This document shows positions 15,949-26,043 of a stretch of 64,000 nucleotides of DNA, in pieces. This stretch comes from Halorussus caseinilyticus. GTDB taxonomy: Archaea > Halobacteriota > Halobacteria > Halobacteriales > Haladaptataceae. The stretch lies in assembly GCF_029338395.1 (NCBI RefSeq), contig NZ_CP119809.1, positions 2,418,001 to 2,482,000 on the forward strand, written 5' to 3'. The number at the start of each line of letters is the position of its first letter. Position 1 is the stretch's first letter. The position numbers were made by a program, and so were the translations under genes. The notes beneath the pieces were generated by a model. The model was not told the DNA's origin, did not search any database, and was given only the letters and a program-made list of their open reading frames with translations.

Positions 15949-17001
15949 ATGAATCGAGATGACCTACAACTAATCTTTGTCGGCATCTCTGCTTTGACAG
16001 GACTTGTCCTCGTCTTGTTCCGTCTCTCTAATAGCGAGTCAAACTACTTGAATTGGATTCCCTCCATCTTCAGAGGTTGGGTCGGTACAGCACTTCTTAC
16101 CCTCATCGTCATCTATCTCGGATGGCAGATTTTCAAGGTCCTTTGGTCAAGTGGAGACGAGGATACTGAAAATTGGTACGAAGAGGTTGAGCGAACGGCT
16201 AATGGGATACAGCAAACTTGGCACTACTCAGGTACTCGTCCAGAAGATGAAGACCGCAAGCGGACTGTCGAAGAGATGGATAAACTCACAGACGAGCTAA
16301 AAGAACACAGGCGTCACCAGAACGCTACAGACGAGATGACCGAAGTGATGAACGAAATCATCCAGCGGTGGGATGACTGTCGCGAACTCATTCTCATCTC
16401 TCACGGTTCTCACTACTACTCAATGCGAGAGTTCTATTTCTCAGAGAACGCTGAACGCCTCAAAGAACTTCTTAACCGAGAACGGCAGGGACGACTTCAG
16501 AGAGGTATCTCAAAAATCGTTATAAAGGTTCGGAATAGTGTTGAGTGGATACGAGAGAAAATCCATAATCTGCGCTCAATCTCTATACCTTATGAAGTTC
16601 ACAAGGAACTCAAGAATCACCTTACTACAGAGCGACTCTCCAATTTCAACAACGGCGACCACTATCTATTCATCCTCGGTGAACATTCCTACGAACTCGT
16701 CCACTACGAACACGACGAGGATAAATTCAATATGTATAAACTCCGCTATGATTTTCGCCATAGCCCCATCGCTATTGATTTGCTCTCCGGATATACCGTC
16801 TCACCCGATATGCTACTTACCCGGATAGAGGAAGCAGAGATGGTCGATACAATTCCGGCCAAGTTCTTTACCCGAAGTGGCTACGGACTCGAAGCACTTG
16901 CAGAATCCGACCCGATGGTTCGTCACCCGGACCCACGAGAAGATGATGACGAAGAGAGCGAGGAGCAAAAAGTCAGAAACAAGTATAACGAAGAAAAATA
17001 A
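15949..17001 (+). CDS. AT-rich accessory membrane-anchored protein
   Basis: 350 residues. Two N-terminal membrane helices (about 8-26 and 44-62) are followed by a large soluble domain with helical, charged segments and a central HSYELVHYEHDEDKFNMYKL stretch, and a very acidic tail. No family recognised. Codon use is plainly unlike the neighbours: many A/T-ending codons, and Asn, Ile and Lys are frequent. Flanks are AT-rich too. It looks horizontally acquired, and a membrane-associated defence or stress role is possible but unproven. Confidence 0.65.
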   Translation: MNRDDLQLIFVGISALTGLVLVLFRLSNSESNYLNWIPSIFRGWVGTALLTLIVIYLGWQIFKVLWSSGDEDTENWYEEVERTANGIQQTWHYSGTRPEDEDRKRTVEEMDKLTDELKEHRRHQNATDEMTEVMNEIIQRWDDCRELILISHGSHYYSMREFYFSENAERLKELLNRERQGRLQRGISKIVIKVRNSVEWIREKIHNLRSISIPYEVHKELKNHLTTERLSNFNNGDHYLFILGEHSYELVHYEHDEDKFNMYKLRYDFRHSPIAIDLLSGYTVSPDMLLTRIEEAEMVDTIPAKFFTRSGYGLEALAESDPMVRHPDPREDDDEESEEQKVRNKYNEEK

Positions 17002-19799: not shown

Positions 19800-19952
19800 A
19801 CCACACCCTACGTGGTGACGGGGCTAAAACGTCCGGAATCCGTGAAAATTGCCACTCGCCTCTGAGTTAATATCTTTCTCTTTGTGTCAGGACGGCGGAC
19901 CGGCGGAAGTAAAGTGTTAAGTTCAAGTCGCGGGACCGAAATCTTACGACAA

Positions 19953-21482
19953 ATGCCAGTCTCCACGGGGAGCGACGTTTTAGACCGGATTCTCGACGGC
20001 GGATTCCCGACGAATCGCTCGATACTGCTCTCGGGCGGGCCGGGAGTCGGAAAGAGTACCCTCGCTATGCAGTTCCTCCAAGAGGGACTGGCCGACGGCG
20101 ACCAGTGCCTCTACGTCTCGACCGAACAGACCGCCGAGGAGTTGCGGGCGTCGTTCGACCAGTTCGACTTCGAGTTGGACCACCCGAACCTGACGCTGGT
20201 CCACATCCACGCTCGGACCGGCCGGACCATCGAAGACGGCGAACAGAACCTGACGATGCAGACGACCGACGGCGACGAAGTTCTCGGGGAGGGGTACTCC
20301 GCGCCCTTCGAGATGCAGTACATAGAGGAGTACCTCTCGCGGTTCGCGCCGTGCGACAGGGTGGTCTTCGACAGCACGGCGAGTCTCGCGGGCATCGAGA
20401 GCGACTCACACTTCTTTCAGCGCGCCATCCTCGATTTGGTCCGACTGTTCACCGACGAGTTCGAGGCCACCTCTCTGCTCACCGCCGAGTCGCTCGTGCC
20501 GGAGTCCGGCGAGGACGACCCCGGCGGACAACTCGCTCCGGAGACCGTCTTGGAGTTCTCGACTCACGGGGTGATTCGACTCCGGCGGAGTCAGGTCGAG
20601 GGCAACCCCCGCCGGTTCCTCCGAGTCGTCAAGATGCGCGGCATCGACCACGACACCCGCGAGTACGAACTCGGAATCGGCGAGTCGGGGGTGTACCTGA
20701 CGCCGCACAACCGGACCCACGACTTCGGCGTGAACGACGATGACGTAATCTCGACCGGGTTCGAGGGCTTAGACGAGATAAGCGGCGGTCTCACGAAGGG
20801 AAGCGGCGTTCTCATCGAACACGACGGTCGGGCGTTCGTGGACGGACTCGTGGTCGGCATGGCCGCCAGCGCGCTCGACTCGGGGATGGGAATCTGGCTC
20901 GTCCCGTCGCCGTCGCTCACGCCGAGTCGGTTCGAGTCGATGCTCCCGGCCGGGGAAGACGACATTCCGACGCTACTGGCGTCGAACTCGCTGTTCGTGT
21001 TGGACTCGTTCAACGTCTGGAAAGCCTACAACGACCACCAGAACGTCTACGCGGCCTCCTCCAGCGGACTCATCAGTAGCATCTTGACCAAGAGTTCTAC
21101 GATGTCGATGGCGTTCGTCAAGCGCGTCCTCCAAGACATCACGTCGCGGCGCGACCGGCCGGTTCTCGCGCTGGTGTACACCGAGGCGTTCCTCCGGTGG
21201 TTCGACGCCCCGCAGGTCCGGGAACTCTACTACTGGGCGCGAGAGAACGTCTCGTTCGACGCCGACACCGTGACCTACATCCACAACCCCGAGACGATGG
21301 AGACGAACCTCGCGGAGTTCTTCGTCTACGACGCCCAGCACATGTTCCGGACGTGGAAACACGAGAACGACATCCAGTACGTCAAGGCCGAGAAGTCGCT
21401 CGCGGGCACCACGAAGTCGATGGGCGTGGTCAACCACGTCGATAGCGCGCCCTTCGTGGAAGTCACGCGTCCGACGAAGTGA
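19953..21482 (+). CDS. RAD55/KaiC-type ATPase with degenerate second domain
   Basis: 509 residues, two tandem RecA-like domains. The first has a full Walker A (GGPGVGKST, about residue 28) and a Walker B-like strand (CDRVVFDSTAS). The second starts at VISTGFEGLDEISGGL but has SGVLIEHDGRA where the P-loop should be, so it cannot bind ATP in the usual way. Such proteins occur widely in haloarchaea as KaiC-like or HTR-like signalling ATPases of unknown partner. ATG 19953 begins the conserved KaiC N-terminus; the upstream extension of the frame is not conserved. Confidence 0.75.
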   Translation: MPVSTGSDVLDRILDGGFPTNRSILLSGGPGVGKSTLAMQFLQEGLADGDQCLYVSTEQTAEELRASFDQFDFELDHPNLTLVHIHARTGRTIEDGEQNLTMQTTDGDEVLGEGYSAPFEMQYIEEYLSRFAPCDRVVFDSTASLAGIESDSHFFQRAILDLVRLFTDEFEATSLLTAESLVPESGEDDPGGQLAPETVLEFSTHGVIRLRRSQVEGNPRRFLRVVKMRGIDHDTREYELGIGESGVYLTPHNRTHDFGVNDDDVISTGFEGLDEISGGLTKGSGVLIEHDGRAFVDGLVVGMAASALDSGMGIWLVPSPSLTPSRFESMLPAGEDDIPTLLASNSLFVLDSFNVWKAYNDHQNVYAASSSGLISSILTKSSTMSMAFVKRVLQDITSRRDRPVLALVYTEAFLRWFDAPQVRELYYWARENVSFDADTVTYIHNPETMETNLAEFFVYDAQHMFRTWKHENDIQYVKAEKSLAGTTKSMGVVNHVDSAPFVEVTRPTK

Positions 21483-21539: not shown

Positions 21540-21640
21540 CAGACGCTCGGCCAATCAGCCGACAGGGTGGGATAAAGGGTGGGATAGAGGGGCCGCCCGC
21601 TCGCGGGCGGGGGCTTTCTGGGCGCTCGTCACGGCGGTTC
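21540..21640. repeat. copy 1 of dispersed intergenic hairpin repeat
   Basis: Within the 289-base gap after the KaiC-like gene. It shares the words CAGCCGACAGG, GGGATAAAGG and GGGGCCGCCCGCTCGCG with the copies at 37.6 and 44.9 kb, and GGGCGGGGGCTTTC with 3.77 kb. This copy is short and seems to lack the middle part (the CTGACCGAC stem). The rest of the gap, from about 21.69 kb, is AT-rich and lies downstream of the terpene-synthase-like gene. Confidence 0.6.
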
Positions 21641-21771
21641 CTGTGGTCGCAGTTGCTCTACCTGTGACACACACTCCGACACTCAAAGCACGCCTATACA
21701 ATTCCGAAAGCAACAAAATTGTTTCTTGGGGAAACGTATACAATTTCGAGAGAAACGGAAAGCAACCTCCG

Positions 21772-22773
21772 TCACACTTTCCCTTTGCCCCAGATGAAGT
21801 ACCGCAGGACCGTCTCCATCCCCTCGACGTACGACGAGGCGTCGATTGACGAGAGGTCTTCGGCGAGGCGTTCGAGTTCCTCGTAGTGGCTCTGCCACCG
21901 TTCGAAGAAGGCGGCGTCCACGTCGGCGTCCCGGAGTCGCTCGACGACTTCCGCCTGATACTCGGGGTTGTCGCGGAGTCGCTGGAGGTCCTCGTAGGTG
22001 AGCAACCCCTCTTCGAGGGCGTATATCACCGGACCGGAACTGAAGTCGGTCTCGTGAATCTCGCGTTCCCACGTCGCCACCCAGTTGCCGATGCGGGCCA
22101 TCATCTGGGCCTCCCACACCATCCGCCGGAGTTGGGCCAAGTCGTCGGTCGGAAGCGCGGGCGCGTACATCAGGTCGATGTCCGCGTAGGCGAACATCAT
22201 GACGTTGTGCGACTCGTGGACGGTCAACTCCTGATAGTTGGCGAGTTCGGGGTACTGACCGAGGAAGTAGGAGTACTCGATGGCGTTGACCGCCTGCTGG
22301 GTGTCGAACCGGAAGAGCGGAAGGTAGAACTCCGACCGCGGGGCGTCGTCCAAGACGCTCTGGAGTTCGTCCCACACCAACTGCGCGAACTCCAACTGCT
22401 CGGTCTGGACTTCCTCGCGGTCGGCGTCCATCTCGTAGGCCGAGTGGGGAATCTTGGCCGCCTCGTCGAACGTCTCCCTGTCTCGGTCTTTCTCCAAGAA
22501 GTCGTCGAGAATCGTGATGAAGATAGTCGCCAGCGTCTTGACGGTTCGTACGTCGGTTACGTGTTCGTCGGGAACGAACGAGAACGTGAAGTGCGGCGTC
22601 AACCGGTGTACCCACTTCCAGAGAAACGAATCTCGACTCCCCTCGAAAGTGTCGTACTCGTCTATCAACGCCTGCACCTCGGGCGGTAGTTCGTGGCCCG
22701 AAATGCTCTCGACCTCGGCAGGTTCGTCTGACGAGGTTACCGCCTCGACGAGTTCCGTCACGTCCGCTCCCAT
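21772..22773 (-). CDS. class I terpene-synthase-like protein
   Basis: 333 residues, all-helical. It has a DDxxE metal motif (DDFLE, residues 90-94) placed after a hydrophobic helix TIFITIL, as in class I terpene synthases. An NSE/DTE-like motif follows 136 residues later: N230-W-V-A-T234-W-E-R-E238, in the helix context ARIGNW. An Arg-Tyr pair lies near the C-terminus (324-325). Ionisation of a prenyl diphosphate by a Mg cluster is the expected chemistry. The second Asp of the NSE motif is Trp, and the usual Arg sensor is not evident, so catalysis needs testing. ATG 22773 preferred over GTG 22782. Confidence 0.6.
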   Translation of the reverse strand: MGADVTELVEAVTSSDEPAEVESISGHELPPEVQALIDEYDTFEGSRDSFLWKWVHRLTPHFTFSFVPDEHVTDVRTVKTLATIFITILDDFLEKDRDRETFDEAAKIPHSAYEMDADREEVQTEQLEFAQLVWDELQSVLDDAPRSEFYLPLFRFDTQQAVNAIEYSYFLGQYPELANYQELTVHESHNVMMFAYADIDLMYAPALPTDDLAQLRRMVWEAQMMARIGNWVATWEREIHETDFSSGPVIYALEEGLLTYEDLQRLRDNPEYQAEVVERLRDADVDAAFFERWQSHYEELERLAEDLSSIDASSYVEGMETVLRYFIWGKGKV

Positions 22774-22945
22774 TGTTTCCACTGTCAGACATTCAGCGCC
22801 GATATTTATACCTTGGTGTTTGGTGCAACTGCTCTTCAGCCTTCGAACTGAAGGAAACTAGAGTAGAGTTGTAACGATAGCGAAACCGCAGTCCGCTCCG
22901 GTCGTTTTCAGTAGGAATTAGTGACCCACGTTCGTCTCTTGAGAT

Positions 22946-23335
22946 ATGGACGACGCGACCCTCGTCTTCGACGACGACTGTGGCTTCTGTACGTGGTGGG
23001 CCGACTTCTTCGCGAACCGGTCGAACTTCCGAGTCGTCGGCTTCACCGAACTCACCGACGAAGAGCGCGGGCGACTCCCCGACGACTACGAGGAGTGCGC
23101 TCACCTCCTGACCGACGACGAGGTGTACTCCTGTGGCGAGTCGCTCGAACAGGCGTTCGTCCGGTCGGCGGTCGGCGAGGACTTCCGTCCGGTGGTCCGG
23201 TTCCTCCGCAACTTCGAGGACTACGAACACCTCCGAGAGGCCCTCTACCGCGAGATTGCCGACCGGCGCGGCGACCTCGGCGTCGTCGTCTCGAAGACGC
23301 CCCCGGCGCGCGAGCAGTCCGACGAAAACGAGTAG
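22946..23335 (+). CDS. DCC-family thiol-disulfide oxidoreductase (DUF393)
   Basis: 129 residues, thioredoxin-like. The N-terminus has the defining DDDCGFC motif with a CxxC-like pair, and the VYSCGESLEQAFVRS segment follows as in the family. DCC proteins are predicted disulfide oxidoreductases with unknown substrates. ATG 22946 fits the conserved start. It is divergent from the terpene-synthase-like gene, with about 170 bases between them. Confidence 0.8.
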   Translation: MDDATLVFDDDCGFCTWWADFFANRSNFRVVGFTELTDEERGRLPDDYEECAHLLTDDEVYSCGESLEQAFVRSAVGEDFRPVVRFLRNFEDYEHLREALYREIADRRGDLGVVVSKTPPAREQSDENE

Positions 23336-25512: not shown

Positions 25513-26043
25513 ATGCCTGAGTACAAAGCATTCAGTTCCGAAGCCGAGGTCAACGGGCGGTCGGTCCAGTCCATCGTAGAAGGCGTTGGACAGTTCTCCA
25601 GCGCGTACAAAGAGCGCGCGCTCGAAATTCTCGCCAACCACGGCTTGCCGGAACCGACCGAAGGCGAGTGGTACTCGATGCAGTCGTACCTCGACGCTTT
25701 CGCGGAACTCGTCGATACCGTCGGCCCGAAGACGGTGACGAAAATCGGGTCGGAGATTCCGAACGTCGTCGAGTGGCCCGAAGATGTCGAAACCGTCGAA
25801 GACGGGATGCACGCACTCGACGACGTGTACCAGATGAACCACCGCGGCGGCGAAATCGGCTACTACGAGTTCGAGAGGACGGGCGACTCGGGCGGCATCA
25901 TGGAGTGTAAGAACCCCTACCCGCCGGAACTCGACGAGGGCCTGATTCAGGCGGTGGCCGAGAAGTTCAGCGGCGAAGGCGCGTTCGTCCGCATCGAACA
26001 GACCAGCGAAGGCGAAACCCGAACGTACCAGATTTCGTGGTGA
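25513..26043 (+). CDS. conserved haloarchaeal protein, possibly HNOB/V4R-like sensor fold
   Basis: 176 residues, acidic, no membrane helix. N-terminal half helical (SYKERALEILANHGL, YLDAFAELVDTVGPKTVTKIG), C-terminal half alternating strands, with one Cys in IMECKNPYPPELDEG. The layout recalls small-molecule-binding V4R/haem-NO-binding-like domains, but I cannot confirm it. It starts after an AT-rich leader with TAAAACTAAG (about 25481), a plausible promoter. Confidence 0.55.
   Translation: MPEYKAFSSEAEVNGRSVQSIVEGVGQFSSAYKERALEILANHGLPEPTEGEWYSMQSYLDAFAELVDTVGPKTVTKIGSEIPNVVEWPEDVETVEDGMHALDDVYQMNHRGGEIGYYEFERTGDSGGIMECKNPYPPELDEGLIQAVAEKFSGEGAFVRIEQTSEGETRTYQISW

Follow-up and report, generated by a model that had tools for sequence, protein, structure and literature searches.

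A candidate non-canonical class I terpene synthase with an NWxxTWxRE signature in Halorussus caseinilyticus

Described class I synthases and the P0001 family

Terpenoids as natural products have been described extensively from plants, fungi and bacteria but have seldom been documented for archaea. Most of what is known about archaeal isoprenoid chemistry concerns lipids, carotenoids and quinones. The DDxxD/E and NSE motifs hold three Mg ions for the ionisation of a prenyl diphosphate. Terpene synthases of the non-canonical classes IB, IC, ID, IE and IF have the class I fold without the known DDxxD/NSE motifs, and class ID is defined by the motifs D(N/D), ND and RxxKD (PMC11234867). Terpenoid biosynthesis in archaea has been reported by Samusevich et al. 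(bioRxiv 2024.01.29.577750, as cited in PMC12797696). The terpene synthases of that report may overlap the family described below, which would lower its novelty.

The window analyzed here is a stretch of 64,000 nucleotides of Halorussus caseinilyticus DNA and contains the open reading frame P0001 (Table 1). The product of P0001 is most probably a class I terpene synthase of a non-canonical kind, marked by the signature NWxxTWxRE, as judged from the predicted fold, the metal motifs, the profile alignment and the genomic association of the relatives. Like the PF19086 synthases (such as pentalenene synthase, epi-isozizaene synthase and Sat1646), the family combines a helical fold of comparable size with a DDxx(D/E) motif, a spacing of 140 residues, and an N-x3-S/T-x3-E motif in which the Glu is preceded by a basic residue. 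Where these enzymes have Asp after the NSE Asn, the family has Trp, and another invariant Trp follows the Thr. The family also lacks the effector-triad Arg and a conserved RY, and the C-terminus of P0001 stops before the RY position. Sequence similarity between the two groups is very low. Like classes IB–IF, the family has a class I fold in which diphosphate-binding motifs are changed, but it differs from them in keeping the DDxxD/NSE motifs and altering the triad and RY instead. The class ID motifs ND and RxxKD are absent from the P0001 translation. Since the metal motifs are kept while the triad and RY are dropped, the family would serve as a test of how far class I chemistry depends on the canonical apparatus for diphosphate sensing.

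Members of the family were found in 119 of the 392 sampled genomes of the order Halobacteriales (~30%), and the source genome carries three copies, P0001 in the window and two paralogs. Canonical synthases occur in the same archaeal order, and in one genome (L066) the canonical gene lies ~0.9 kb from a family member. These canonical enzymes differ in having fully canonical motifs and an N-terminal Polyketide_cyc2-like domain, and they are present in only 4 of the 392 genomes. The PF19086 scores across the order are bimodal, with 136–174 bits for the canonical synthases in those four genomes and at most 36 bits for everything else. Members with an identical or almost identical NWxxTWxRE motif occur in further families of the phylum, which are considered methanogens from their gene content, and the metal-ligand residues are also kept in these relatives. 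More distant members with DDxxD and NTxxTWxRE-like motifs appear in genomes that resemble Methanosarcina, as judged again from gene content. A relative is present in six plasmid records, each of which annotates it as "hypothetical protein". Together with the 119 genomes and the lack of an NCBIfam model, this annotation would suggest that a large number of archaeal terpenoids have been overlooked.

The gene and its conserved residues

P0001 was described in an earlier note as a reading frame of 333 residues. This length and the position as first noted stand, and the frame is read from the minus strand. The location of the TATA-box-like TATAAATA is consistent with a leaderless archaeal transcript, for which it would serve as the promoter. 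Comparison with four Halorussus orthologs gave dN/dS values of ~0.12 to 0.25, indicative of purifying selection. The putative promoter box and these values argue that P0001 is a maintained gene. The nearest named orthologs are those of Halorussus salinisoli (89%) and Halorussus aquaticus (84%). In another genome of the genus, a stop-ridden remnant of P0001 (L162) retains 70% identity over 69 residues.

Table 1. Location of P0001, its sequence features and the genes discussed. Locations without a prefix are positions in the window.
Feature	Location	Strand	Remarks
P0001, terpene-synthase-like ORF	21772-22773 (stop included)	minus	333 aa, ATG start
Alternative GTG start of P0001	22782
TATA-box-like TATAAATA	22803..22810	minus	29 nt before the ATG of P0001
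DDFLE metal-binding motif, residues 90-94	22492..22506	minus	C-terminal end of helix 69-94
Effector-triad-equivalent region, residues 184-191	22201..22224	minus	lacks the usual Arg
D200	22174..22176	minus	helix 193-202; invariant in 72 relatives
R216	22126..22128	minus	helix 209-240; invariant; candidate diphosphate ligand
R227	22093..22095	minus	same helix, one turn before N230; invariant; candidate diphosphate sensor from helical spacing
NSE-type motif N230-WVA-T234-WER-E238	22060..22086	minus	in helix 209-240
R324-Y325 pair	21799..21804	minus	not a conserved motif: R 20/72 (22 counting Lys), Y 42/72
KaiC-family ATPase gene	19884-21482	plus	convergent with P0001
DCC1-like gene	22946-23335	plus	divergent from P0001
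Gene for small DUF2378-like protein	25513-26043	plus	weak match (E 0.008)
350-aa ORF	15949-17001	plus	hydrophobic N-terminal stretches
Two near-copies of TATACAATTYCGARAGMAAC	21692-21757		~40 bases apart
GC-rich inverted repeat	near 21590-21615
Canonical class I terpene synthase gene	L066:5896-7335	minus	PF19086 E 2e-50; DDYLD; NDVYSPRKE; N-terminal Polyketide_cyc2-like domain
Polyprenyl synthetase gene	L066:4955-5953		overlaps the canonical terpene synthase gene
DUF92 membrane protein gene	L117:8825-10219	plus	PF01940 E 5e-64; divergent from methanogen relative
P0001 remnant	L162 (G066:C1:780673-780879)

The motifs DDFLE and NWVATWERE had been singled out from the sequence, and both are present at the spacing of class I terpene synthases, with 140 residues between the DD and the N. 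A strict two-motif pattern was defined as DDxx[DE] and Nx3[ST]xx[KR]E, 125–155 residues apart. This pattern is found in 67 of the 72 relatives and in 15 of 100,000 shuffles of P0001. Among 568 unrelated neighboring ORFs it occurs in one, which is a genuine terpene synthase. In the alignment of 72 relatives, D91 is present in all sequences and D90 in 68 (94%), and E94 is found in 61 with Asp in the other 11. For the second motif, N230, W231, W235 and E238 are present in 72/72, T234 in 70 (Ser in the other two) and R237 in 97%. The complete set of invariant residues comprises W54, D91, D200, R216, R227, N230, W231, W235, E238 and D243. The Trp within the NSE motif had been called odd. It is no peculiarity of this one protein, since the invariance of W231 makes it the hallmark of a large archaeal family. 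In the profile alignment, NWVATWERE is aligned with the NDxxSxxKE of the canonical synthases.

The Arg of the effector triad (Arg-Asp-Gly) of canonical class I terpene synthases is lacking in the P0001 family. In the canonical synthases, the triad Arg is located at N-46 in 10 of 12 sequences and within two residues of it in the other two. The corresponding position 184 of the family is Arg or Lys in 8/72. At position 187, the equivalent in the profile alignment, 57/72 have Asp or Glu and 0/72 have Arg or Lys. Position 185 is Arg or Lys in 18/72 relatives, and P0001 itself has neither residue from 184 to 191. The Methanosarcina-like relatives have Arg or Lys at position 187, and thus the loss of the effector Arg may be derived. 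The RY pair reported at residues 324–325 is indeed present, and R324 sits at +94 from the NSE Asn, the usual distance in canonical enzymes. In the profile alignment, however, the counterpart of R324 is the Arg of "RGNxxW". The true RY follows ~11 residues later and would fall past the C-terminus of P0001. The pair was ruled out as a functional diphosphate-binding motif because R324 is poorly conserved and aligned upstream of the true RY. With neither of the two usual canonical features (effector-triad Arg and RY) found, P0001 was classified as a non-canonical variant.

The product of P0001 would be a soluble enzyme with class I chemistry. Three Mg2+ ions held by the DDFLE and NSE-type motifs would coordinate the diphosphate group of an allylic prenyl diphosphate. 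The bond would then ionize, and the carbocation would be cyclized or quenched inside a hydrophobic pocket to give a terpene hydrocarbon or alcohol. The substrate may be GGPP or FPP, and a C25 substrate is possible. GGPP and FPP are made by haloarchaea for lipids, carotenoids and squalene, and the source genome encodes three polyprenyl synthetases that could supply the substrate. Since the canonical diphosphate-sensing Arg is missing, its function has to be taken over by other basic residues, for which the invariant R216 and R227 of the NSE helix are the leading candidates.

Fold and profile comparisons

The structure of P0001 was predicted using AlphaFold2 with the alignment of 72 sequences. 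The model has a pLDDT of 93.9 and a pTM of 0.92 and is all-helical, as had been expected from the sequence. The common cavity that the earlier note also expected was assessed from secondary-structure positions, and both metal motifs are found at the helix positions expected for class I terpene synthases. The matches of the model in the PDB are aristolochene synthase, Sat1646 and FPP synthases, with a probability of 1.00 and TM scores of ~0.55. The fold search for a terpene synthase alpha-domain, which the earlier note had set as a test, thus recovered class I terpene synthases and prenyl diphosphate synthases rather than another fold. The mixture of terpene synthases and FPP synthases at a TM near 0.55 nevertheless weighs against the terpene synthase reading. 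A Methanosarcina-like relative was modeled from an alignment led by that relative, with a pLDDT of 90.5, and its fold matches are almost exclusively terpene synthases. Values of TMq 0.65 with hydropyrene synthase and of TMt 0.67 (rmsd 4.3) with BjKS were obtained for this model.

The Pfam profile PF19086 (Terpene_syn_C_2) matches P0001 with an E value of 9.4e-5. The profile search that had been proposed gave a match at the cut-off, with a score of 22.7 bits against the curated 23.7 bits and of 24.6 in a six-frame search. At E values up to 1, the same profile matches 55 of the 72 relatives, the best at 8.5e-8. Profile–profile comparison of the family with 14 canonical synthases gave an alignment over most of the length with both motifs in register. 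With 18 canonical synthases, the E value is 1.1e-4, compared with 0.53 for the reversed-sequence control. No alignment was obtained when the Methanosarcina-like relatives alone were compared with the canonical synthases by profile. With the polyprenyl synthetases of the same genome, just 39 non-motif columns were aligned to the family profile. Sequence searches of the PDB with P0001 singly and with the family profile returned no match. PF00348 does not match P0001, and NCBIfam provides no model for P0001 and nothing consistent for the relatives.

The computations thus give a predicted class I isoprenoid-synthase fold, two near-invariant metal motifs on two helices, and purifying selection. The earlier proposal of a class I terpene synthase is borne out by the predicted fold, the motifs, the profile alignment and the genomic association of the relatives, but not in the form of a standard Terpene_syn_C_2 enzyme, since the effector-triad Arg is absent.

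Gene neighborhoods and alternative readings

P0001 is flanked by a KaiC-family ATPase gene and a DCC1-like gene, and no obvious terpenoid or terpene tailoring gene is found beside it in the window. A KaiC-family ATPase gene is also located within 100 bp of the relatives in L047, L069, L073 and L087. In the source genome, a P450 gene (PF00067 E 1.2e-75) lies between the two paralogs of P0001. The best NCBIfam matches of this P450 are pentalenene oxygenase and albaflavenone monooxygenase, far under the cut-offs of those models. A cluster of the natural-product type in L054 (2-13821) contains a family member with genes for a P450, a SnoaL-like protein, an O-methyltransferase, UbiA, two FAD monooxygenase-like proteins and an aminotransferase. 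The cluster also contains a further methyltransferase, with GPP C-methyltransferase as its best NCBIfam match. Of the four relatives nearest to the Halorussus clade by the tree, three (L012, L014 and L016) are accompanied by a gene for an FAD monooxygenase, and the source genome contains no match to the FAD monooxygenase of these closest non-Halorussus relatives. Telling terpene-type gene clusters are found for a minority of the relatives. Many relatives adjoin regulators of the PAS, HalOD1, FilR1 and KaiC types or histidine kinases, as given by raw neighborhood counts.

The DUF2378-like gene lies 2.7 kb from P0001. Of its five copies in the genome, two adjoin the paralog/P450 cluster, and homologs are also found at related loci. 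This gene was rejected as a partner of P0001. A counterpart next to the Halorussus orthologs was not found, and with five copies in the genome its proximity is probably incidental. In L117, a methanogen relative is divergent from a gene for a membrane protein of DUF92, a family that includes a phytyl-phosphate kinase.

Fold and metal motifs cannot tell cyclases from class I enzymes that ionize a prenyl diphosphate and transfer the uncyclized cation to water or to a second molecule, such as prenyltransferases or acyclic synthases of the linalool/geranylgeraniol type. Prenyl diphosphate synthases are among the fold matches of P0001, and a linalool/nerolidol synthase is among those of the methanogen relative. 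A non-cyclizing role is nonetheless considered rather unlikely for P0001, since the P450 flanked by the paralogs of the same genome resembles sesquiterpene oxidases. Chain elongation with IPP is also unlikely because P0001 has no second DDxxD motif and no match to PF00348. The appearance of FPP synthases among the fold matches would also suit a prenyl diphosphate synthase, or a relative of phytoene/squalene synthase, of core archaeal lipid metabolism. This possibility is very remote: P0001 has a single Asp-rich motif and a second motif of the NSE type, Pfam returns terpene synthase only, the polyprenyl synthetases of the genome fail to align at the motifs, and a family present in so limited a share of the genomes is not part of core metabolism. 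A trans-prenyl diphosphate synthase proper (PF00348, with two DDxxD-type motifs) was ruled out by the missing second Asp motif and the lack of a meaningful profile alignment.

The missing canonical diphosphate-holding residues and the frequent proximity of PAS-type, KaiC-family, HalOD1 and FilR1-type regulators or histidine kinases to the relatives would fit a degenerate or repurposed class I fold without catalysis, for example a sensor of prenyl diphosphates. This explanation is improbable, since the metal ligands are all invariant or nearly so and the gene is under purifying selection, whereas loss of catalysis usually frees such residues. Regulators are, moreover, very common in haloarchaea. 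The reading of P0001 as a non-canonical class I terpene synthase is therefore preferred. A wider proposal can be offered tentatively, and is in our view somewhat doubtful as a whole. The family would constitute a separate class I subclass of Halobacteriota without the effector triad or RY, in which the diphosphate is held by R216 and R227. It would be the main source of undescribed archaeal terpenoids in about one-third of haloarchaeal species and would be controlled by the neighboring sensory regulators.

Several further features of the window were recorded. The two near-copies of TATACAATTYCGARAGMAAC lie directly downstream of the P0001 stop codon, and the GC-rich inverted repeat is found in the same region. 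The 350-residue ORF lies in the part of the window with the lowest GC content (55%).
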